64,000 nucleotides of DNA from Dyella choica (GTDB taxonomy: Bacteria; Pseudomonadota; Gammaproteobacteria; Xanthomonadales; Rhodanobacteraceae): contig NZ_RYYV01000010.1 of assembly GCF_003977665.1 (NCBI RefSeq), positions 62,001 to 126,000 on the forward strand. Direction: 5' to 3'. A program made the position numbers and the translations under genes. The notes beneath the pieces were generated by a model, which saw only the letters and a program-made list of their open reading frames with translations, was not told the origin of the DNA and did no database searches. This document shows, piece by piece, positions 35,001 through 47,148 of the stretch. The first letter of the stretch is position 1; every line of letters starts with the position of its first letter.

Positions 35001-35540
35001 ATGATTGCAGTCATCATTCCCGTATTCCGCAAGGCCGCCGAAACCGATATCGGCGCCATCGTCGCCCTGATCCAATCCGCCTATCGCGGTCAATTCAGCC
35101 GCCAGGGCTGGACCACCGAAGCCGATCTGCTTGATGGCCAGCGCACGGATGCGGCTGATGTGGCCCGGTCGCTGGCTGCGCCGGACAGCGCCGTGCTGCT
35201 GGCGTCGATCGATGGCGAGCTGCTTGCCTGCTGCCACGTCGAGCGGCACGGCGATGCGGCGTACTTTGGCATGTTCGCCGTTCATCCGCCGCGCCAAGGT
35301 GGCGGCTTGGGGCGGCTGGTGCTGGCCGAGGCCGAACGTCATGCGCGACAAGCATGGCAGTGCTCAGCGATGCACATGAAGGTGATCGACGTGCGCAGTG
35401 ACCTGATGGCCTGGTACGAGCGGCAAGGCTATCGCCGCACCGGCGAATGCTCGCCTTTCCCTTATGGCGATGAGCGCTTCGGCATTCCGCGCCGCGACGA
35501 TCTGAAGTTCGAATTGATGGTGAAGGACCTGACGGCATGA
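35001..35540 (+). CDS. GNAT-family N-acetyltransferase
   Basis: A 179-residue acetyltransferase with the acetyl-CoA loop FAVHPPRQGGGLGRLVLAEA and a C-terminal VIDVRSDLMAWYERQGYRRT typical of the fold. The substrate is unknown. The ATG at 35001 (MIAVIIPVFRKAAETDI) was chosen because the segment after it begins the conserved fold. It overlaps the Rieske gene by four bases; the pair may be a trailing part of the suf neighbourhood. Confidence 0.88.
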   Translation: MIAVIIPVFRKAAETDIGAIVALIQSAYRGQFSRQGWTTEADLLDGQRTDAADVARSLAAPDSAVLLASIDGELLACCHVERHGDAAYFGMFAVHPPRQGGGLGRLVLAEAERHARQAWQCSAMHMKVIDVRSDLMAWYERQGYRRTGECSPFPYGDERFGIPRRDDLKFELMVKDLTA

Positions 35541-35854
35541 ACGAGGCTTGGGTGGAAGTCGGGACGCGCTCGGAGCTGCTGCCGGGCGAATTCAAAGTGG
35601 TTTGGGACGGCGACACCGCCATCGCTGTCTTCAATGTCGACGGCGATCTTTATGCGGTCGAGGATATCTGCACCCACGACGGCGGCGAGTTGGCCGGCGG
35701 CGAGATCATCGGCCACGAAGTGGAATGTCCGCGCCATGGTGCGCGTTTCGACTTGCGCACGGGAGCGCCGACCTGTCCGCCGGCGTATGAGCCGATCCAT
35801 CGGTTTCCGGTAAAGGAAGAGCATGGTTTGATCTGGACGCGGGACGATCGCTGA
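35537..35854 (+). CDS. Rieske [2Fe-2S] ferredoxin
   Basis: A 105-residue small Rieske protein with the cluster motif CTHDGGELAGG...CPRHG (two Cys, two His) and the typical FDLRTGAPTCPPA. It resembles the ferredoxin subunits of non-haem iron oxygenases found beside suf genes in Xanthomonadales. Its electron partner is not encoded nearby. It is translationally coupled to the GNAT gene. Confidence 0.92.
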   Translation: MNEAWVEVGTRSELLPGEFKVVWDGDTAIAVFNVDGDLYAVEDICTHDGGELAGGEIIGHEVECPRHGARFDLRTGAPTCPPAYEPIHRFPVKEEHGLIWTRDDR

Positions 35855-36357
35855 GCGCAACGTTCAGTCATCTGTTTGCAAAGAACTCTCCCGCTTTTGT
35901 GCCTTGGTTCTCAGGGCAGCATGCACGCAGCTGTTGTTGACGGAGCTTTCATCGAAGGATTGCTACACCGCAACATAGGAAGTGGAAGTTCGTAGTGGAA
36001 TGCTGTGGCACGCGTGGAGACTCGCGCGTGCAGGGGTTGCGACAAGACGCAGGTCGATGTGCGTCGTGGCTGGTGCAAGCAGGTCAAGCGGATGACGTTG
36101 GCTGGCAGCGTGTCGGTGAACGTTTCTTTTTGCGGTGTCAATCGCGCGAGCGTCCTTTTCATGGCTGAAGTCGGCCGTGACGGTGTGCTTGCGCCATAAA
36201 GAAAGAGCGCAGCCGCATGCGCCGGAAGAGTGTGCCCAGGGGTAATCAATGACGAATGACGAATGCGAGTGCAACGCAGGCGGAGCAGCCACCTATCAAT
36301 GAGGCATTGAGTCGGCCGGCCGGGCCTTTGCATGCGCCTTCGCAAGGAGATTGCGCA
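35855..36357. other. 503-bp intergenic region upstream of the NRPS gene
   Basis: No gene could be supported here. The stretch is somewhat lower in GC than its neighbours and has a direct duplication (ATGACGAATGACGAATG near 36249-36265), an imperfect hairpin CACGCG/CGCGTG near 36009-36030, and AAGGAG at 36343 serving the NRPS start. A small frame at 36005-36199 is present but lacks a convincing start signal. Confidence 0.5.
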
Positions 36358-39300
36358 ATGAATCATGAGTCACCTATGTCGCTGCCATTGACGACCGCCC
36401 AGCGCGGATTGTGGGTAGGCCAGAAGATCGGCGCGGCGGATGCCACCTTGAACATCGCCGAGATGCTGGAGATTTGCGGTCCGGTGCGGCCTGAGTTGTT
36501 TATCCGCGCGCTATGGCAGGTTACTCGCGAAGCCGACACGCTGCGTGTAAGCGTGATTGAGCATCAAGGCCGCCCACGTCAGGTGGTGCGGTCGATCTAT
36601 CCGGGTGAGTTCCCGTATCTGGATGTCAGTCACGAGGCCCGTCCGCGCGCAGCAGCCGAAGCATGGATGATGGAAGAATTGAACCGCCCCGTGGATCTGG
36701 CCAATGATCCCCTGTGGGTGAGTGCTCTGTTCAAAGCTGCGGAGGATCGCTACTACTGGTACCAGCGCGCTCATCACGTAATCTTTGACGGTTATAGCGG
36801 CGGTGTAATCGCACGAAGGTTGGCCGAGCTCTATAACGCCTATGTGGAAGGATGCGAACCGGCTCAGTGCGGCTTCGGTCCCTTGCAGGAACTGATCGAG
36901 GCCGAGGCCGCGTACCGCGATTCGGACCGGCTGCAGCGCGATCGGGAATACTGGAAGGAAAAGCTTGCCGACCTGCCCGAAGCTGTTTCGCTGTCGCGTC
37001 TGGGGCCGCACAGCAGCATGGGGGGGCTACGCCGCAGCACCGGGCATCTGTCTGCCGAAACGGTGCAGCGCTTGCACGAACTGGGCAAGCGCACTTCCAC
37101 CAGCCTGCCGCAGTTGCTGATCGCATTGGTGGCCGCCTATTATCACCGTGCTACCGGCGCGCAAGATCTGGTGATCGGCATGCCGGTCTCAGGGCGCATC
37201 AATGCAGCCTTGCGCAAGACGCCTGGCATGGTCGCCAACATCGTGGCCATCCGCTTGCGCTTCACCCCGGAAACCACCGCGATCGATTTGTTCGCGCAAG
37301 TCGCGCAGGTGGTCAGGCAGGCACTGCGCCATCAGCAATATCGTTACGAGGATTTGCGGCGCGATCTTGGGTTGATCGGACAGGGCAAGCATATCGCCTG
37401 GCTCGGCGTGAACATCGAGCCGTTCGATTACCAGCTGGCGTTTGCCGGCGCTCGCGTGATTCCGCACAACGTATCGAACGGCTCCGGCGAAGATCTCACG
37501 ATCTTCGTCTACGACCGGGGCAACGGCAGCGAATTGCGTTTCGACCTCGACGCGAATCCCGTTCTGTACAGCGTCGCCGATCTGGATGAGCATCGTCGGC
37601 GTTTGGCCCTGTTGATGGATGGGGTGTTGGACGAGCCCGATCGACCGCTGGAGCAAATCGACATCCTCGGTGTCCAAGAGCGCCGGCGCCTGTTGCACGA
37701 CTGGAACGACACGGCCGTCCCGCTGGCGCAGGAAAGCTTGCCCGCGTTCATTGCACAGCATGCGCAGTTGACACCCAATGCGCCTGCCGTGTGTTGTGAA
37801 GATTCAACCGTGACCTACCGCGAACTGCACGAACGCAGTGTGTGGCAGGCCTGGCAATTGCTTGCCGATGGGGTGCGGCCCGGTGACACCGTCGCCGTAA
37901 TGCTTCCGCGCAACGAGCAGTGGCTGATCGTGCTGCTGGCGATCATGCGCACGGGTGCCAGTTTCCTGCCATTGGATCCGGACGGCCCGCCGGAGCGTAT
38001 TTCGATGATGCTGGACGACGCCGCGCCGATCGCGCTGATCGCCACCCCCGAGTTGTGCGAGCGCTTCGGGCTTGGCGGCATGCTGCTACTGCATCCTGAG
38101 GATCTGAGTGGCTCGCTCGATGCGAACGCCGAAGCGCCGGACTGGTCGCGACCCGATGACACGGCCTACGTGCTCTACACGTCGGGATCGACTGGACGCC
38201 CCAAGGGCGTGGAGGTCACCCATCGCAATCTGGGCAATTTGCTGCAAGGCATGCGGTTGCAGCTCGCGCTCGGCCCGAGCGATCGCTTCCTGGCCATAGC
38301 CACCATGGTGTTCGACATCGCCTTGCTGGAGCGCTTCCTGCCGCTGATGGCTGGAGCGAGCGTAGTGATCGCAGGCAGCGAGACGGTGCGCCATCCTCCC
38401 AGCTTGCTGCGTCTGCTGCAGCGTCAGCAAGTCACGCACATGTGGGCGACACCCTCGCTATGGCGGGTGCTGCTGGCGAGCGCGGACGCTCAGCTCGGAC
38501 AGCTGCACGCATTGGTCGGCGGCGAAGCCCTGAGCGCGGAACTGGCCAATCGCCTGCTGCAGCGCGCATCGAGCGTGACACAGCTTTATGGCCCGACCGA
38601 AACCACGGTCTTGTCCACGTCGTACGAGTTGAAGGAGGTGAGTTCAAACGCGCCACCGATCGGCCGCCCCTTATGCAACACGCGGTTGTACGTGCTGGAT
38701 CAGCATCAGCAACTCGTGCAGACCGGTGCCATCGGCGAGCTCTATATTGCCGGCGCCGGCGTTGCGAAAGGCTATCTCCATCATCGTCAGCTGACCGAGG
38801 CGCGTTTCCTGCCGGATCCCTTCGCGGCTGACGGCAGCCGAATGTACCGTACCGGCGATCTGGTCTATTGGAACAGCCAGGGCTCGCTGCATTTCGTCGG
38901 CCGTGCTGACGAGCAGGTGAAGATTCGCGGCCATCGCGTTGAACTGGGCGAGATCGAAAGCCGGTTGGTCGCGCATGCCGCGGTAGTCGAGGCAGCGGTT
39001 ACCGCCCACCGAGACCAGGATGGCGCAATGGCTTTGGCAGCTTACGTAGTGATGCAGGAAAACCGGCAACTGGTCGCCTCCGAGCTGCGCAGCTACTTGG
39101 CCAGGTTCTTGCCCGAGTACATGCTGCCAAGCCATTTCATAGCAGCGCAAGCGATGCCGCTGACGGCCACCGGCAAGCTGGACCGCAAAGCCTTGGCACC
39201 GCCGGTACGCACTCAGCGAGCTGGCTATACCGAGCCGGTTACGGATGTCGAAAAGAAACTAGCCGCGCTGTGGCAGCAAGTGCTGGGTGTCGAGCGGATC

Positions 39301-40374
39301 GGCCTCAACGACAATTTCTTCCAGCTGGGCGGCGATTCGCTCAGCGCCGCGGAGATGATTGCGCGCTTTCCGGATTGCTTCGGCATGGAACTGCCGCTCG
39401 CCAGCCTGTTCGAAGCATCGACCATCGCCGGTCTCGCGGCGTACCTGCAGCGCGCCGAAGGCAAGAGCGATCCACTGGGCTTGGTGCTGCCGTTGCGCGT
39501 TTCGCTCCGGGACCGGCCCTTGTTCTGCATTCATCCAGCGGTTGGGCTTGCTTGGGGCTACACGGGCCTGTTGCGGCACCTGGACGACAAACTGCCGGTA
39601 TACGGCCTGCAATCAGGCGGTTTGAGTGACATTGCGTCGTTGCCGGCGACTATCGCGCAAATGGCCGGCGACTATCTGGCGCAGGTCCGGCGCATCCAAC
39701 CGGAAGGCCCCTACCGGCTGCTCGGCTGGTCGCTGGGCGGCCTGATTGCGCACGAGATGACGGCGCAATTGCAATCGCAGGGCCGGCAAGTGGAATTCCT
39801 GGCACTGCTGGATGCCTATCCCTTCGTGGTGGATGAGGCGATGACCAACGCCGATACGTCGCAGGAGATCAGGGCCATCCTGCGTTTCCTCGGCTTCCAC
39901 CAGCATGTAGAGCATCCCCCTGCCAGCCTGGCCGCGCTGACGAATCTGCTATGCACGGAATACGGGGTGTTCAGCATGCCGCTGGTGCAGGAGATTTCAC
40001 GCAGCCATCCGCAACTGGTCGAGCAGGTATCTGCCGTCACGCTCAACAATCTGCAGCTGGCACGCAAACACGTGCCGAGGCGGATCGATACCGATGTGCT
40101 GTTCTTCCGGGCAGCGCAGAAGGAATCCGTCGACCTGAGCGCGCAACTCTACGACCGGCCCGAAGCCTGGCAGCTTTACGTGGATGGCCGAATCGAAGTG
40201 CATGACATCGCCTGCCATCACCAGGCCATGCTGGAAGCGGCCCCGGCCGCGCAAATCGGCAGGCTGGTCATGCAGCGGCTGTATGCGTTGCAGACGGCCC
40301 GTCCCCAATCCGCCCAACTCGTCCGGCATGCGCCGGATCATGCGCCTACCGGGAGCTTCGCCGCCTATGCCTGA
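36358..40374 (+). CDS. single-module non-ribosomal peptide synthetase (C-A-T-TE)
   Basis: A 1338-residue synthetase with EntF-like architecture. Condensation domain: residues about 6-430, active motif HHVIFDG near 140. Adenylation domain: about 460-950, with YTSGSTGRPKGVEVTH, YGPTETT, YRTGDLVYW, DEQVKIRGHRVELGEIES and TGKLDRKAL. Carrier domain: FFQLGGDSLS near 985 (phosphopantetheine Ser). Thioesterase: GWSLGG near 1123, His in CHHQAM near 1283. Hand alignment of the binding pocket gives D-I-L-W-V-G-L-V-L-K, nearest to glycine-type codes. The ATG at 36358 has AAGGAG nine bases upstream; an in-frame ATG at 36256 lacks this. The stop overlaps the glycosyltransferase start by eight bases. Product unknown. 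Confidence 0.93.
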   Translation: MNHESPMSLPLTTAQRGLWVGQKIGAADATLNIAEMLEICGPVRPELFIRALWQVTREADTLRVSVIEHQGRPRQVVRSIYPGEFPYLDVSHEARPRAAAEAWMMEELNRPVDLANDPLWVSALFKAAEDRYYWYQRAHHVIFDGYSGGVIARRLAELYNAYVEGCEPAQCGFGPLQELIEAEAAYRDSDRLQRDREYWKEKLADLPEAVSLSRLGPHSSMGGLRRSTGHLSAETVQRLHELGKRTSTSLPQLLIALVAAYYHRATGAQDLVIGMPVSGRINAALRKTPGMVANIVAIRLRFTPETTAIDLFAQVAQVVRQALRHQQYRYEDLRRDLGLIGQGKHIAWLGVNIEPFDYQLAFAGARVIPHNVSNGSGEDLTIFVYDRGNGSELRFDLDANPVLYSVADLDEHRRRLALLMDGVLDEPDRPLEQIDILGVQERRRLLHDWNDTAVPLAQESLPAFIAQHAQLTPNAPAVCCEDSTVTYRELHERSVWQAWQLLADGVRPGDTVAVMLPRNEQWLIVLLAIMRTGASFLPLDPDGPPERISMMLDDAAPIALIATPELCERFGLGGMLLLHPEDLSGSLDANAEAPDWSRPDDTAYVLYTSGSTGRPKGVEVTHRNLGNLLQGMRLQLALGPSDRFLAIATMVFDIALLERFLPLMAGASVVIAGSETVRHPPSLLRLLQRQQVTHMWATPSLWRVLLASADAQLGQLHALVGGEALSAELANRLLQRASSVTQLYGPTETTVLSTSYELKEVSSNAPPIGRPLCNTRLYVLDQHQQLVQTGAIGELYIAGAGVAKGYLHHRQLTEARFLPDPFAADGSRMYRTGDLVYWNSQGSLHFVGRADEQVKIRGHRVELGEIESRLVAHAAVVEAAVTAHRDQDGAMALAAYVVMQENRQLVASELRSYLARFLPEYMLPSHFIAAQAMPLTATGKLDRKALAPPVRTQRAGYTEPVTDVEKKLAALWQQVLGVERIGLNDNFFQLGGDSLSAAEMIARFPDCFGMELPLASLFEASTIAGLAAYLQRAEGKSDPLGLVLPLRVSLRDRPLFCIHPAVGLAWGYTGLLRHLDDKLPVYGLQSGGLSDIASLPATIAQMAGDYLAQVRRIQPEGPYRLLGWSLGGLIAHEMTAQLQSQGRQVEFLALLDAYPFVVDEAMTNADTSQEIRAILRFLGFHQHVEHPPASLAALTNLLCTEYGVFSMPLVQEISRSHPQLVEQVSAVTLNNLQLARKHVPRRIDTDVLFFRAAQKESVDLSAQLYDRPEAWQLYVDGRIEVHDIACHHQAMLEAAPAAQIGRLVMQRLYALQTARPQSAQLVRHAPDHAPTGSFAAYA

Positions 40375-41677
40375 GTCCCACGCACCCATCGCCATTTTCA
40401 CCATCGGCACGCAAGGCGATATCCGTCCTTGCGTTGCTCTGGGTGTCGGCCTGCAACGCGCCGGTTATCCGGTGCGCATCGTCACCAGCGACAATTTCGA
40501 AAGCATGGTGCGTGCGGCCGGCCTGGCGTTCTTTCCGCTGACGGCGAATTTCCAGACGCTGCTCGACTCTCATCGCGAGATTGCCGACCAGGGCTTGGAC
40601 ATGTCGGCGATGGCACGCATTTCCCGCCACTTCTACGCCGAATGGGCCACCCATTGGGCCAGCGAAGGCATGGCGGCGGCCCAAGGCGCGGGCTTGCTGA
40701 TCGGGGTGGCCAACAGCACCCTGCTGGCCAAGGCGGTTGCCCAAGCGCAGGGCATCCCGTTCGTGGGCGCGCAATTGCAACCTCTGACACCGTCACGCCA
40801 GATGTCCCCGCTGGTGCTGGTCGGCGGACGCAAGCTGCCGCCCGCGCTGAACATGGCGGCCTACAACGTATTGCGGCTGCTGGTCTGGTACGTGATGAAG
40901 CCGGCCATCAATGACATCGTGCGCCCGCAACTCGGCCTGCCGGGATATCCCTGGTACGGGCCTTACTTCAAGAATCGGCATCATCGTGTGCTGTACGGAT
41001 TCAGCCGTCACGTCGTGCCCAGGCCGGGCGATTGGCCTGAGACGGCGCAGATCACCGGCTACTGGTTCCTCGACCAAGCCGATTGGCAACCACCGGATCC
41101 CTTGCGTGCCTTTCTCGATGCCGGTCCCAAGCCGATCTATGTCGGTTTCGGCAGCATGGTCAGCACGCATGCCGAGCAATTCACGAAGACCGTGCTCGAA
41201 GCCGTCCGGCGCAGCGGCCAGCGTGCCGTGCTCGCCACCGGTTGGGGCGGTTTGGCGGGCGAGGAGGGCACCCAGGACGGGTCCATCTTCTTTACTCGCG
41301 GCGCACCGCATGACTGGCTGTTTCCACGGGTTGCCGCGGCGGTTCATCACGGTGGCGCCGGCACCACGGCGGCGGCGGTCCGCGCCGGGATTCCTTCGGT
41401 AATCGTGCCTTTTTTTGGCGATCAGCCGTTCTGGGGGCGGTGCTTGCAACGCGAGGGGGCTGCACCGCCGATCGTGGACCGGCGCAGCATGCGTGCGGAA
41501 ACTTTGGCTGCGGCGATCGATGCGGCAACCAAGCAGCCCATGCGAAGAGCGGCTGCATCGCTAGGGGTAAACGTGCGTGCGGAAAACGGCGTGGCGGAGG
41601 CGATAGTGTGTCTGCGCAACTGGGGCTTGTTGAAGCCGGCTCATGATGAAGAGTTTGCGCTTGCTGTCGCAAGATGA
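40367..41677 (+). CDS. UGT-type glycosyltransferase (GT1 family)
   Basis: A 436-residue GT-B enzyme with an N-terminal acceptor domain (FTIGTQGDIRPCVALGVGLQ, the sterol/macrolide glucosyltransferase start) and a C-terminal nucleotide-sugar site (VHHGGAGTTAAAVRAGIPSV then PFFGDQPFW, about residues 325-360). Enzymes of this group glucosylate or rhamnosylate lipids and small natural products. Its start overlaps the NRPS stop codon, so the two proteins are coupled and it probably modifies the NRPS product. Confidence 0.93.
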   Translation: MPESHAPIAIFTIGTQGDIRPCVALGVGLQRAGYPVRIVTSDNFESMVRAAGLAFFPLTANFQTLLDSHREIADQGLDMSAMARISRHFYAEWATHWASEGMAAAQGAGLLIGVANSTLLAKAVAQAQGIPFVGAQLQPLTPSRQMSPLVLVGGRKLPPALNMAAYNVLRLLVWYVMKPAINDIVRPQLGLPGYPWYGPYFKNRHHRVLYGFSRHVVPRPGDWPETAQITGYWFLDQADWQPPDPLRAFLDAGPKPIYVGFGSMVSTHAEQFTKTVLEAVRRSGQRAVLATGWGGLAGEEGTQDGSIFFTRGAPHDWLFPRVAAAVHHGGAGTTAAAVRAGIPSVIVPFFGDQPFWGRCLQREGAAPPIVDRRSMRAETLAAAIDAATKQPMRRAAASLGVNVRAENGVAEAIVCLRNWGLLKPAHDEEFALAVAR

Positions 41678-42390: not shown

Positions 42391-42603
42391 ATGGTCATTA
42401 CCCGAAAAAAAGGGCTCATGGTCTTTGCTGCGGCGACTGCGCTTTTCGTGCCATGGATGTTTGTACTGAATTGCTTTGTTTACATCCTGAATACTGGCAG
42501 CATGAATAGCGAAAATCTTGTCATTTCGTTAATTACGTCGACTATTTCCGGCGTTCTATGCGCGCTTATTGCCCTGCACGGCTACCTTCGCAAGCGAGGT
42601 TAA
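42391..42603 (+). CDS. small membrane protein
   Basis: A 70-residue product with two hydrophobic helices (GLMVFAAATALFVPWMFVLN and LVISLITSTISGVLCALIAL) and basic ends. GAGG eight bases before the ATG at 42391 supports translation. GC content and codon use are lower and more AT-biased than in neighbouring genes, as in the exporter remnant just upstream, suggesting a shared foreign origin. The family is not recognised. Confidence 0.55.
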   Translation: MVITRKKGLMVFAAATALFVPWMFVLNCFVYILNTGSMNSENLVISLITSTISGVLCALIALHGYLRKRG

Positions 42604-42797: not shown

Positions 42798-43700
42798 TCA
42801 GTTCGGCGGGAACTTCACCAACACCCGTTGACCGATGCGTAAAGCTGCCGACGGCGCCTGATCGAGCGTCAGCACGCAATCCACCGACCGGGTATTGGCG
42901 CGCACCTGCGGATCATCTTCCAGCGTGCTGGCCCCGAACACCTTGCCGACGCGCAGCACGTGTGCCTTCAGTGGCGCCATGCCGCTGCCGCTGTCGTCAT
43001 CCACTTCGGCAGCCATGCCCTCATGCACCACGCCAACGAACGACTCATTGAGTTCGGCGCGCACGATGCGCGGCGAATCGGGGAGCATCACGAAGATGGG
43101 CCCCGTCGCTGGCGATACCGAAGCACCTGGCTGCACCATGCGCTGCACGATCTCGCCGGTAGCCGGCGCGTGCAGGCTACGCAGCTCCAACTGATAGCGG
43201 GCACCGGCTACTTTCTGGGCAGCCAGTGCTGCGGCCGCGTGGGCGTTGTTCAATTCGGTCTGAGCCTGCTGCGCGGCTTCCCGCGCATCGTCCGCGCTTT
43301 GTACGTCACCGGCGCCAAGCTTGGCAGCCTGCTCCAACCGCGATGCGCGCAATCCGGCCGACTTGGCGCGCTGCTCCAGCGCGCCGATCTGCGCCATGGC
43401 TTGCTGCTGTTCGGCGAGCGCGGTGTCCAGGGCCAGCTTGGCCGGCTGCAGGTCGAGTTGCGCCAGCAACTGTCCTTTCTGCACGTGGTCGCCTTCATGC
43501 ACATCGACCTGGGCGACGACGCCTTCACTGGGCATGGTGAGCTTGAGCAGGCCCCCTTCGATGTCGATGCGTCCGCGCGCTACCGCCGCATACGCCGCTG
43601 CCCTGGCAGCGGCGCTTGGCTCCGGTGCCGGGTCTCGCGAGCAGCCGGCCAGCAGCGCGACAAGCAAGGCCAACGGAAGGCGCAGATCACGCAAAGTCAT
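42798..43700 (-). CDS. periplasmic adaptor (HlyD/MacA-type) lipoprotein
   Basis: A 300-residue membrane-fusion protein with a lipoprotein signal (LALLVALLAGC), a split biotinyl-lipoyl domain (PSEGVVAQVDVHEGDHVQKG and LHAPATGEIVQRMVQPGASV), a coiled-coil hairpin (about residues 95-160) and a beta-barrel. It would bridge the inner-membrane permease and the outer-membrane channel encoded in the same operon. It is the last of four genes, 51 bp after the ATPase gene. Confidence 0.9.
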   Translation of the reverse strand: MTLRDLRLPLALLVALLAGCSRDPAPEPSAAARAAAYAAVARGRIDIEGGLLKLTMPSEGVVAQVDVHEGDHVQKGQLLAQLDLQPAKLALDTALAEQQQAMAQIGALEQRAKSAGLRASRLEQAAKLGAGDVQSADDAREAAQQAQTELNNAHAAAALAAQKVAGARYQLELRSLHAPATGEIVQRMVQPGASVSPATGPIFVMLPDSPRIVRAELNESFVGVVHEGMAAEVDDDSGSGMAPLKAHVLRVGKVFGASTLEDDPQVRANTRSVDCVLTLDQAPSAALRIGQRVLVKFPPN

Positions 43701-43751
43701 GCATAGGTTCCTAAAAGAAAGCAGGCTTGCCCGCAAGATTCGCCCCTCACC

Positions 43752-44537
43752 CTAAGCCCCCGATCGCGCCGGGGGCAGGCTTTCTCCCGGAAGGGGGGAG
43801 GGGGCGGAAGCTGCAGGCGGCACATGGTCGCTCAGAATGCGGCCGTCTTCCATCGCCAGCACGCGGTCGGCATGGTGGACCAGGCGCGGATCGTGGCTGA
43901 CGCACAGCACCGTGGTGCCATGCGCTCGGGCGATGCGATGCAGGATGTCGATCACGATCTGTCCATTGGCGGCATCCAGCGCACTGGTGGGTTCGTCGGC
44001 GAACAGCAGTTCCGGCTGTTTGGCCAGCGCGCGAGCGATCGCGACACGCTGTTTTTCGCCGCCGGACAATTCGGCCGGCAGCAGCCGCATGCGCGGGCCA
44101 AGGCCGACCTCCTCCAGCGATTCGGCCGCGCGCTTGCGCACCACGTCCTTGGCCAGTCCCATGTAGCTCAGCGGCAGCTCCACCTGCTCCAGGGCGGTCA
44201 ACGCCGGGAACAGATTGAAGCCCTGGAACACGAAGCCGGTGTGCTGCAGGCGGAAGGATTCCAGCGCCCGCGTGCTCATTCCGCTCAGTTCATGGCCGAG
44301 CGCACGCACTGCGCCGCCATCGGCGGGTTGCAGGCCGCTCAGGATCGCCAGCAACGTGCTCTTGCCACAGCCGGAGGGGCCGGAAATCAGCGTGAGTTCG
44401 CCGGCGTGCACGTCCAGGGTGAGGTCGTGCAGCACCGTGCTTTCAATGCGGCCCGAAACGAAGGATTTGCGCACGCTGCTGGCTTGCAGCGCCGGGGTAC
44501 CTGGGGAAGAGGTCGAAGCGAGGGTGGACATGCTCAT
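43752..44537 (-). CDS. ABC transporter ATP-binding protein (MacB/LolD type)
   Basis: A 261-residue ATPase with Walker A GPSGCGKSTLL, FVFQGFNLFPALTALEQVELP, signature LSGGEKQRVAIARAL, Walker B LLFADEPTSALD and the switch His in VSHDPRLV. It belongs to the LolD/MacB/DevA family that partners FtsX-like permeases. The start (44537) overlaps the permease stop codon. The C-terminal tail is low-complexity (Pro/Ser/Ala). Confidence 0.94.
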   Translation of the reverse strand: MSMSTLASTSSPGTPALQASSVRKSFVSGRIESTVLHDLTLDVHAGELTLISGPSGCGKSTLLAILSGLQPADGGAVRALGHELSGMSTRALESFRLQHTGFVFQGFNLFPALTALEQVELPLSYMGLAKDVVRKRAAESLEEVGLGPRMRLLPAELSGGEKQRVAIARALAKQPELLFADEPTSALDAANGQIVIDILHRIARAHGTTVLCVSHDPRLVHHADRVLAMEDGRILSDHVPPAASAPSPLPGESLPPARSGA

Positions 44538-45667
44538 CTCAGCAGGCTCGCCGGGTCGGCACGGCGCAGGGTACGCACGGCGGCCAGGCCGGATACGATC
44601 GCCAAAGCCATGCTCAGTGCCAGACAGACGATGGTGGTGAGCGGATTCAAGTCCATCGGCACGCTGCGGTTGCGCGCGATGACGAGCAGGATCAGGCCGA
44701 TCACGATACTGCACATCAATCCCAGCGCACCTACCCAGAACGCCTGTTCCATCACCACCTTGCGCAGCGAACCGCGGCCGACGCCAAGTGCGTTCAAGGT
44801 GGCGTATTCGCGGATCGAGCCGATGACTGCGGCGATCAGGGTCTGGCTGGTGATCACCGAGCCGACCAGGAACACGATGCCGGCGAGGAACAGCACGCCC
44901 GCACCGGCGCCGGTGTCGAACATCCAGTACAGGCTCGATTCGCGTGCGAATGCCTTGGCCGTCCAGACGGTGTACGGCCCGAATGCATTGGAACCGTTCA
45001 AACGGTTTGCCACCAGCTTGGGCTTCACGCCATGGCGTACCTTGGCAATGAAGTAGGTCATCATGCCGGCATCGTCGTGCGAGAGGTCGAGCATGCGTGC
45101 GGTTTCCAGCGAAGCGACGATGTTCACGCCGCCTAGCGCGCGCAAGCCGCTGCTCACGCCGACTACTCTCACGCGCTGGCCATTGATGACCGCACTCTCG
45201 CCGATGTCGACGCCGAGGCTGTCAAGGTCGGCCTTGTCCACGATCACCGCGCCGGGTTCGTTCAGGCGTGCGCGCAGCGCGGGGGGCAGCGCGCGCGCGA
45301 ACATCATGCCGTCTGGATGCACATCGATGCCGGACACGAACACCGACACGCCGCCAGTGTCGCGCGAGCCGCGCCAGTCGGCATCCACCCAGCGAAACGG
45401 CTCCACCTTCATCACATCCGGATCCATGCGCAAGCGCATCGCCACGTCTTCGCTGATGGGGCGGCCGAGGTTCACGCTCTGCGTGCCCGGATAGCCTGCC
45501 CACAGATCAGCCGAGGAACCGGTGATGTACACGCTTGCGCTGCCAAAGATGCCGAGCACTAGCGCAGCCTGCAGCAGCTGCAGCAGGCTGGCGAAACCCA
45601 CCGCCAGAATCGCCGGCAGAAAGCGGCGCCATTCGTAGACGAGGGTCTTGCGTGCCAGCGCCACCAT
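44534..45667 (-). CDS. FtsX-like (DevC/MacB-type) ABC permease
   Basis: A 377-residue membrane protein with one N-terminal helix (FLPAILAVGFASLLQLLQAA), a large periplasmic domain of about 230 residues and three C-terminal helices, ending in the typical AAVRTLRRADPASLLR. This is the DevC-like layout of type VII ABC (mechanotransmission) systems that push substrates through a TolC-like duct. Start and stop codons overlap the neighbouring genes. Confidence 0.92.
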   Translation of the reverse strand: MVALARKTLVYEWRRFLPAILAVGFASLLQLLQAALVLGIFGSASVYITGSSADLWAGYPGTQSVNLGRPISEDVAMRLRMDPDVMKVEPFRWVDADWRGSRDTGGVSVFVSGIDVHPDGMMFARALPPALRARLNEPGAVIVDKADLDSLGVDIGESAVINGQRVRVVGVSSGLRALGGVNIVASLETARMLDLSHDDAGMMTYFIAKVRHGVKPKLVANRLNGSNAFGPYTVWTAKAFARESSLYWMFDTGAGAGVLFLAGIVFLVGSVITSQTLIAAVIGSIREYATLNALGVGRGSLRKVVMEQAFWVGALGLMCSIVIGLILLVIARNRSVPMDLNPLTTIVCLALSMALAIVSGLAAVRTLRRADPASLLR

Positions 45668-47148
45668 TACTTGGCTTCCTTGCGGCTGCTCAGTGCCTTG
45701 TAATCGGCGGCCACATTGACCAGCGGCAACGGTGCACCACCCAGGGCCTTGTACAGCGACACGTAGGCGAGGTCACGCTCGGCGCGCGCGGATACCAGTT
45801 CGAGCTGCGCTTTGGCTTGGGCGATCGTCGCGTCCTGCAGGTCAAGGGTGCTGGCAAGGCCAAGGCTGCGCCGCTTGTTCAGTGCGGAAACGTTGTCGTC
45901 GAGCGCTTGCGCAGCTTGCTGGGCCCAGGTCTCTCGCACGCGTGTCTGCTGCAGATCGCCCATCGCCGTTTCGGTTTCGGCAACCCCCTGCAGCACTGCC
46001 TGGCGGTACGCGTATACCGCCGCTTGCAGCCCATGCTTTTGAGAGTTGGCCTTCGCCATGCGCATGCCCCAATCGAACAGCGGCATGTCGATCACCGGCC
46101 CGGCCGAGAAGATGCTGTCGCCGGAGCGAATGAGCCTGCGCTCGGTCAACAGGTTCACCGACCAGTCCAGTGAACTGCCCAGGCCGATATGCGGGTAGAT
46201 GTCGGCACGGCTGATACCTGCTTCGCCTGCCGCCCGCAGCACCTCCGCTTCGGCCGCGGCGATTTCAGGGCGCGTGCGCAGCAAGTCCGCTGGCGCGTGT
46301 GTCATCTGCCAGTCGCCCAATTGCGGCTGCACGCCGCCTTCCAGCCAGGCCGGATCGGGTTCGCTCTGGCCGAGCAGCACCGCCAGTTGCTGGGCGTTCG
46401 CATTGATGGCGTGCTGCGGATCGGTCAGCGCCATTTCCGAACGTGCCAGCTCGGCCTTGGCCGAGGCGACATCGGTCGGGGCGACCAGCTTCAAACCCGC
46501 GCGCAACACCAGCAGGTGCAGCTTTTCCTGGTTCGCATCGCGCACGCCGGCAAGCAGCTTCGCCTGCTCCTGGGCCGTGCGCAGCGAGACCCAGCAGCGA
46601 GCCACTTCCGCCACCAGGGTGACATAGGTGCCTTGCAGGTTTGCCCGCGCCGCATCGAGATTGCCGGTGGCGAGCCGGTGCGTGCTCTTCAATGCCCCAA
46701 ACAACGGCATTTCCCATAGCGCATCGAAGCCCACGATGAAATAGGAAGCACTGGCGTCCGGCTGGATCACCTGGTTGGTATCGAAGCGCAGGCTGGGCAA
46801 ATAAGGGTCGTTGCTGTGCCGATACAGGATGCGTGCCGCGACCAGCCGTTCGGAGGCGGCTTTGACTTCCAGGTTATGGTCCAGCGCGCGCTTCACCAGC
46901 GCGTCCAGCTGGGGATCGTTGAGCGCCTGCCACCAGTTCTTGAGGTCTGGCTGCGCGGGGTTTGCCGCGGTTGCCGTGGGCGCGTTGCGCCAAGCCTGCG
47001 GTAGCGGCGGCTTCAGGGCCGGCAGGGGGGGCGCGGTGCAGCCAACCAGAAGGGTCAGCAGCAGCGCCGGCAGCAGGCGGAGGATAGGGAGGACTTGGCG
47101 CGGTGCGGAATCGTGCACGGGCTGGTGACCGTCAATGAAGGCGTGCAA
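45667..47148 (-). CDS. outer-membrane efflux lipoprotein (NodT/OprM family)
   Basis: A TolC-family outer-membrane channel of about 480-490 residues with a lipobox (ALLLTLLVGC) and two outer-membrane-efflux repeats. It includes the segments NWWQALNDPQLDALVKRAL, LLRTRPEIAAAEAEVLRAAG and LFDWGMRMAKANSQK. The first residues are uncertain: the candidates are a TTG at 47148 and a GTG at 47118, neither with a clear ribosome binding site. It is the first gene of the efflux operon. Confidence 0.9.
   Translation of the reverse strand: MHAFIDGHQPVHDSAPRQVLPILRLLPALLLTLLVGCTAPPLPALKPPLPQAWRNAPTATAANPAQPDLKNWWQALNDPQLDALVKRALDHNLEVKAASERLVAARILYRHSNDPYLPSLRFDTNQVIQPDASASYFIVGFDALWEMPLFGALKSTHRLATGNLDAARANLQGTYVTLVAEVARCWVSLRTAQEQAKLLAGVRDANQEKLHLLVLRAGLKLVAPTDVASAKAELARSEMALTDPQHAINANAQQLAVLLGQSEPDPAWLEGGVQPQLGDWQMTHAPADLLRTRPEIAAAEAEVLRAAGEAGISRADIYPHIGLGSSLDWSVNLLTERRLIRSGDSIFSAGPVIDMPLFDWGMRMAKANSQKHGLQAAVYAYRQAVLQGVAETETAMGDLQQTRVRETWAQQAAQALDDNVSALNKRRSLGLASTLDLQDATIAQAKAQLELVSARAERDLAYVSLYKALGGAPLPLVNVAADYKALSSRKEAK

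Follow-up and report, generated by a model that had tools for sequence, protein, structure and literature searches.

A maintained peptide synthetase-glycosyltransferase gene pair in Dyella choica as a candidate pathway for a glycosylated lipo-amino acid

The gene pair and its coupling

The stretch of DNA from the soil bacterium Dyella choica considered here (the window; 64,000 nucleotides of contig NZ_RYYV01000010.1, from a genome of 5.49 Mb in 68 contigs) contains a gene for a single-module nonribosomal peptide synthetase (NRPS), composed of a condensation (C), an adenylation (A), a thiolation (T) and a thioesterase (TE) domain, which overlaps by 8 bp (40367-40374) with a gene coding for a glycosyltransferase (GT). 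Judged by their sequences, the two genes form a genuine biosynthetic unit, both conserved and maintained, which comprises the following features.

36344 to 36349, + strand: Shine-Dalgarno-like AAGGAG ahead of the NRPS start at 36358 (direct sequence reading)
36358 to 40374, + strand: single-module NRPS, C-A-T-TE, 1338 amino acids (open reading frame, Pfam, purifying selection)
36382 to 37695, + strand: condensation domain of the EntF-type clade, HHVIFDG intact (Pfam, motif, tree)
37756 to 38778, + strand: adenylation core, code DILWLGLVLK, residue 696 being W278 and residue 752 being L331 (Pfam, alignment)
38950 to 39177, + strand: adenylation C-terminal subdomain with TGKLDRK (K517) (Pfam, motif, alignment)
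39256 to 39447, + strand: thiolation (carrier) domain, LGGDSL (Pfam, motif)
39514 to 40236, + strand: type I thioesterase, GWSLGG (Pfam, motif)
40367 to 41677, + strand: GT1-type glycosyltransferase, 436 amino acids, 8-bp overlap with the NRPS (open reading frame, Pfam, PDB comparison)

The open reading frame (ORF) of the NRPS spans 36256 to 40374, and the AAGGAG sequence supports 36358 as its start. Condensation, AMP-binding, AMP-binding_C, PP-binding and Thioesterase all score above their Pfam cut-offs, and the motifs HHVIFDG (C), YTSGSTGRPKG, YGPTE and TGKLDRK (A), LGGDSL (T) and GWSLGG (TE) are intact. The GT in turn matches EryCIII-like_C, Glyco_transf_28 and UDPGT, and its best solved relatives in the PDB are sterol 3-beta-glucosyltransferases, enzymes with UDP-glucose as donor, which have HHGGxGTT and PFFGDQ in common with it. 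ORFs, domains and overlap thus bear out an earlier reading made from the letters of the window (the sequence-only reading), which had described a C-A-T-TE synthetase overlapping by eight bases with a macrolide/sterol-type GT. The best NCBIfam model for the GT, a rifamycin-inactivating glycosyltransferase, reaches 121.6 bits and lies far below its cut-off of 800, and models of defence systems gave no match.

In comparison with Dyella nitratireducens, the nearest named relative, the ratio of nonsynonymous to synonymous substitution rates (dN/dS) amounts to 0.128 (NRPS) and 0.083 (GT); therefore, neither gene is decaying and both are maintained.

In a tree built from C domains of at least 400 amino acids, taken from the loci searched and from 20 selected family rows, the C domain of the NRPS groups with that of E. 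coli EntF, which forms a long branch, and the genome's own lipopeptide C domains are separate with a support of 100/100. This genome harbours several large multimodular NRPS genes (contigs C12, C26, C32 and C48; loci L126-L134), the C domains of which belong to another clade than that of the pair. The two top-scoring NCBIfam models for the NRPS, MxcG (813.5 bits, cut-off 2300) and EntF (667.5 bits, cut-off 2400), are both under their cut-offs, and linear gramicidin synthetase subunit A supplies the closest solved adenylation domains in the PDB.

Spread of the pair and its adenylation code

The sequence-only reading had called the synthetase self-contained. An isolated position of the pair is not supported, since it belongs to a widespread family of gene pairs which elsewhere are accompanied by genes for a phosphopantetheinyl transferase (PPTase), an RhlC-like glycosyltransferase of the GT2 type, stand-alone acyltransferases of the condensation type, an exporter or an acylase. 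When the genome_contigs collection was scanned by pattern with the window NRPS, 74 loci emerged, the named loci of highest NRPS identity (83% down to 71%) being Dyella species. A GT1 homologue directly follows the NRPS in 41 of them, with 33 of the 35 loci at an NRPS identity of at least 47% (a threshold picked after inspection of the table) and 8 of the 39 below; the two unlinked loci above this threshold are both cut by contig ends. Likewise, the adjacency is found in all 18 family genomes having a GT match of at least 55% identity, which share some species with the 74 loci. The hosts of the 41 linked loci include Dyella, Rhodanobacter, Frateuria, Lysobacter, Luteimonas, Xanthomonas hortorum, Zhongshania and Piscinibacter, as well as Granulicella and other Acidobacteriota, Nitrospirillum, Zavarzinia, Telmatospirillum, Asaia and Gluconobacter.

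In the order of Zhongshania, the Pseudomonadales, GT matches were found in 19 of 390 genomes, and the NRPS adjoins the GT in 13 of the 17 further loci examined (out of 20 match places, the remainder being two known Zhongshania loci and one other, in genome G772). A trio of NRPS, GT1 and PPTase genes is present in 2 of the 41 linked loci (Zhongshania) and in 9 of these 17, and one genome (G732) carries two separate pairs, one with an adjacent PPTase gene and one without (L195, L196). In a class-wide sample of 369 genomes, only that of D. choica itself matched the Zhongshania GT at E 1e-50, and the distribution of the system is therefore patchy. Since the Acidobacteriota NRPSs nest inside the Rhodanobacteraceae in a quick NRPS tree (no bootstrap; 13 distant or near-duplicate rows omitted), horizontal transfer is indicated, and the Acidobacteriota clusters were probably transferred between phyla. 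Six of these so nested loci (L018, L021, L026, L027, L028 and L037) have the gene order NRPS-GT1-GT2-acyltransferase. Next to two plasmid-borne GT relatives, no NRPS match was found in a 25-kb stretch of Rhizobium lusitanum (44% identity) and no NRPS among the 12 annotated genes shown for Nostoc sp. HK-01 (37%).

Among the 41 linked loci, several of which are cut by contig ends, an RhlC-like GT2 lies downstream in 17 (149.5 bits with the rhamnosyltransferase model TIGR01556, below its cut-off of 200.55). Stand-alone condensation/PapA-like acyltransferases are present in 16 and an ABC-2 exporter in 7. Four loci carry RND pumps of the Zavarzinia type, and four have a penicillin-amidase/PvdQ-like acylase (adjoining the pair in L012, L013, L016 and L047), which possibly trims or recycles an N-acyl product.

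With respect to substrate, the sequence-only reading had noted a glycine-like code, which holds for the family though not strictly for the window. Of 40 aligned GT-linked NRPSs, the window included, 32 have the code DILQ(L/M)G(F/L)(V/I)W; the alignment took ORFs of 1200-1800 amino acids, so that L064, L076 and L078 (broken frames) as well as L029 and L057 (cut) are absent from it. All 13 NRPSs compared from the order of Zhongshania carry DILQLG(L/V)(I/V)WK, and DILQLGMIWK and DILQLGVI have been assigned to glycine (PMC12283262; PMC5466765). The code of the window, DILWLGLVLK, has the exchanges Q278W and W331L, which it shares with L009, L010, L060 and L162 and with no other aligned row; further exceptions among the GT-linked NRPSs are L016, L020, L023 and L046. 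The window code is not of the serine type; a code DVWHFSLVD is present in other rows of the alignment.

The chromosomal slot in Dyella

The pair lies between two neighbours.

35537 to 35854, + strand: Rieske ferredoxin-like gene bordering the accessory insertion on the left (Pfam, genus comparison)
42798 to 47148, - strand: DevBCA-like exporter with a NodT-type outer membrane factor, core-genome neighbour (profile matches, genus genomes)

The exporter operon, convergent to the pair, codes for a membrane fusion protein, an ATPase, a DevC-like permease and the outer membrane factor. The permease is present in all 16 genus genomes searched, with or without the pair, in contrast to an orthologous GT in only 7 of them; the exporter was therefore rejected as a member of the cluster and is no evidence for the cluster's function. 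In eight of the nine genus genomes lacking the GT, the Rieske gene directly adjoins the exporter, the aligned ends being 25 to 217 bp apart, which amounts to an empty site. By this comparison, the slot is fixed and the pair an accessory insertion into it. In the ninth genome (G104), the closest relative by the exporter permease (97%), a contig end is reached and the T-TE end of a different NRPS adjoins the exporter with no GT before it (L151, 11989-12966), and the slot may thus be a recurrent site of NRPS insertion. The gap between GT and exporter measures 1.1 kb in the window versus about 65 to 390 bp in four other Dyella loci of the same two-gene form, and a small ORF of 70 amino acids, hydrophobic by eye, is located in it (42391-42603, + strand).

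Two of the seven genus loci with the pair in this slot, L011 (Dyella acidisoli, the same genome as L161) and L160 (G017), retain Q278 and W331 (DILQLGFVWK and DILQLGCVWK, respectively) and carry a GT2 and one acyltransferase gene after the GT; neither gene follows the GT in the window, L009, L010, L060 or L162 (G135). The pocket change and the absence of the GT2/acyltransferase block therefore coincide in all seven loci, and, this being one clade, the coincidence may reflect a single event.

A candidate pathway of the glycine-glucolipid type

By analogy, and with a probability of about 0.6, the product of the pair is a glycosylated lipo-amino acid resembling the glycine-glucolipid of the oil-degrading marine bacterium Alcanivorax borkumensis, which consists of glucose, four 3-hydroxy fatty acids and glycine (PMC6669457; PMC10710537). 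This reading draws on the overlap of the two intact genes and their joint retention across phyla, on the glycine-type code of most relatives and the EntF-clade C domain, on the trios with a PPTase gene, on the kinship of the GT to sterol 3-beta-glucosyltransferases and on the RhlC-like GT2 of relatives. Lipphardt et al. (2023; PMC10684412) also found trimeric aglycone-glycine as well as alanine congeners and speculated that glycine comes first, followed by stepwise addition of 3-hydroxyacyl groups and then by glucose, an order which a C-A-T-TE module followed by a GT would yield. In the same paper, the congener glc-40:0-gly has m/z 916.6 ([M-H]-). In A. borkumensis, ABO_1783 and ABO_2215 encode RhlB-resembling glycosyltransferases (PMC10710537). 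While the sequence-only reading recognised no known product and offered no named match, this lipid is a good known model.

According to this proposal, the A domain would charge the T domain with glycine or, in the clade of the window, perhaps with some other small amino acid; the EntF-type C domain would N-acylate the amino acid with a 3-hydroxyacyl group and probably add more such units stepwise via ester bonds. The TE would release the free acid, and the GT would add one sugar to the terminal 3-hydroxyl, most likely glucose from UDP-glucose, resulting in a surfactant that is secreted or stays at the cell surface. Only the two core enzymes of the pathway would be left in the Dyella clade to which the window belongs, with relatives adding a second sugar transferase and extra acyltransferases. 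To go by the place of its C domain in the EntF clade, the outline given by the sequence-only reading, i.e. an EntF-like enzyme joining an external acyl donor to an amino acid (here read as glycine), perhaps repeatedly, prior to glycosylation, is probably right.

A number of points weigh against the proposal. The window code departs from the glycine consensus DILQ(L/M)G(F/L)(V/I)WK at two of ten positions, 278 and 331, and DILQLGLIW is also found in 10 GT-less Marinomonas and Terasakiispira NRPSs, so that the code is not specific to GT-linked members; six GT-less glycine-code Marinomonas loci adjoin 2,3-dihydroxybenzoate (DHB) genes, and EntF-type C domains of known donor use catechols. There is no 3-hydroxyacyl donor enzyme in the cluster and no PPTase gene adjacent to the pair. 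As the sequence-only reading had stated, no PPTase gene is near, both of the genome being on other contigs, but because of these two its lack beside the pair is no obstacle. Moreover, the likeness to A. borkumensis is drawn from the published product structure, and the arrangement of its GT gene beside an NRPS and a PPTase gene is presumed; the pathway itself had not been elucidated as of 2023 (PMC10710537), although later work on its biosynthetic genes may exist.

A wider proposal is put forward tentatively, at somewhat less than even odds: the pairs might constitute an undescribed, horizontally spread family of NRPS-primed glycolipid pathways, in which Xanthomonadales and Acidobacteriota use the RhlC-like GT2 together with stand-alone condensation-type acyltransferases, one to four in number, to turn the glycine-glucolipid core into lipo-amino acids that are polyacylated and diglycosylated. 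The clade of the window within Dyella would then have shed this block and re-tuned its pocket for a different head group. In the literature search, the pair was named in no title or abstract start found, Alcanivorax and the glycine-glucolipid not being among the queries, and the family is therefore not claimed as undescribed.

Among the alternatives, the one that fares best, although we consider it unlikely, is that DILWLGLVLK has moved off glycine and that, with another amino acid built in, a new lipo-amino acid glycoside results. In its favour, the two exchanges are confined to the five loci devoid of the block and purifying selection persists. However, they look volume-compensating, a Trp being lost at one position and gained at the other, and glycine may still fit; in addition, A. 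borkumensis itself makes alanine congeners (PMC10684412).

A glycosylated catechol-amino acid siderophore similar to salmochelin, for which the EntF-like enzyme would couple an amino acid with an aryl acid and the GT would add glucose to the conjugate, is a distinctly poorer candidate. It would be in line with the EntF clade of the C domain and with the Marinomonas relatives (about 43% identity), which adjoin genes for isochorismate synthase, DHB dehydrogenase, DHB-AMP ligase, FecCD and a periplasmic binding protein. Only one of 147 family genomes scores above the cut-off of the DHB-AMP ligase model TIGR02275 (723.55 bits), versus two of 14 control genomes. None of the 18 with an orthologous GT does so, that of D. 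choica included, where the best score is 255 bits; with no DHB-activating enzyme above the cut-off, an enterobactin- or salmochelin-like siderophore is unlikely. The code, too, is of the glycine rather than the serine type. Across the 74 loci, the 17 further loci and the window, homologues of EntB and EntC were found in 6 and of FecCD in 8, all of them Marinomonas and none with a GT. Weak matches were numerous with the EntE query (up to 96 bits, 25-33% identity), and some also arose with the EntA query (up to 81 bits); such a background is to be expected from NRPS adenylation domains and common dehydrogenases, respectively. A catechol donor was thus disfavoured after the searches with TIGR02275 and with the Marinomonas EntA, EntB, EntC, EntE and FecCD queries. 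The sequence-only reading's statement that no donor synthetase is nearby agrees with the failure to find EntB, EntC or FecCD homologues within the 64 kb, the genes of which are annotated in part.

In the Marinomonas loci L042 and L070, GT-less C-A-T-TE NRPSs with a glycine code adjoin DHB genes, FecCD and a major facilitator superfamily transporter, which suggests a catechol-glycine siderophore as their product. An initial placement of the ent genes to the right of the Marinomonas NRPS was wrong, since NCBIfam identifies a glycosidase-like protein, a sugar symporter and a regulator there, the DHB genes being on the left.

Finally, that the GT serves self-protection or merely adjoins the NRPS is very improbable: its best NCBIfam model is the rifamycin-inactivating one, but the two genes overlap by 8 bp and have stayed side by side across phyla, as seen for 33 of 35 close loci and for 13 of the 17 further loci from the Zhongshania order.

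For a hitherto unexplained NRPS of Dyella, Lysobacter, Xanthomonas and Acidobacteriota, a pathway of the glycine-glucolipid type would mean a link to biosurfactants of a known class and a testable product. The variants found in nature, which differ in the presence of the second sugar transferase and the extra acyltransferases and in the amino acid pocket, would allow for a comparison of how one NRPS module might build ester-linked 3-hydroxyacyl chains, and the slot, occupied by the pair in some genomes of one genus and free of it in others, is a natural experiment.

Among known systems, SwrW (serratamolide) and PysA (pyreudione) make a lipo-amino acid with a single module. They are C-A-T-TE enzymes like the window NRPS, likened here by description; that of pyreudione is named in PMC8719888, and no coupled GT is mentioned in the parts of the descriptions available. 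With EntF the NRPS shares the C-A-T-TE architecture and the clade of the C domain; it differs in its score far below the EntF cut-off, in its glycine-type instead of serine code and in the lack of a DHB-AMP ligase over cut-off. From myxochelin MxcG, likewise scored below cut-off, it is set apart by a thioesterase instead of a terminal reductase. As in the rhamnolipid pathway with RhlB and RhlC, a GT1 and then a GT2 would act on 3-hydroxyacyl lipids, a likeness drawn at the level of pathway logic; in contrast, an NRPS takes the place of RhlA, the window has no GT2, and the GT2 of relatives stays below the TIGR01556 cut-off. In comparison with A. borkumensis, for which RhlB-like GT genes have been reported (PMC10710537), the adenylation pocket is altered and many relatives of the pair add GT2, acyltransferases, acylase or exporters. 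The window is also without a PPTase gene beside the pair, in contrast to what is presumably the layout in that bacterium, although NRPS-GT1-PPTase trios do occur in Zhongshania and in 9 of the 17 further loci of its order. Nevertheless, the A. borkumensis product demands glycine activation, condensation of 3-hydroxyacyl groups and one glucosyl transfer, and the pair would offer the same.

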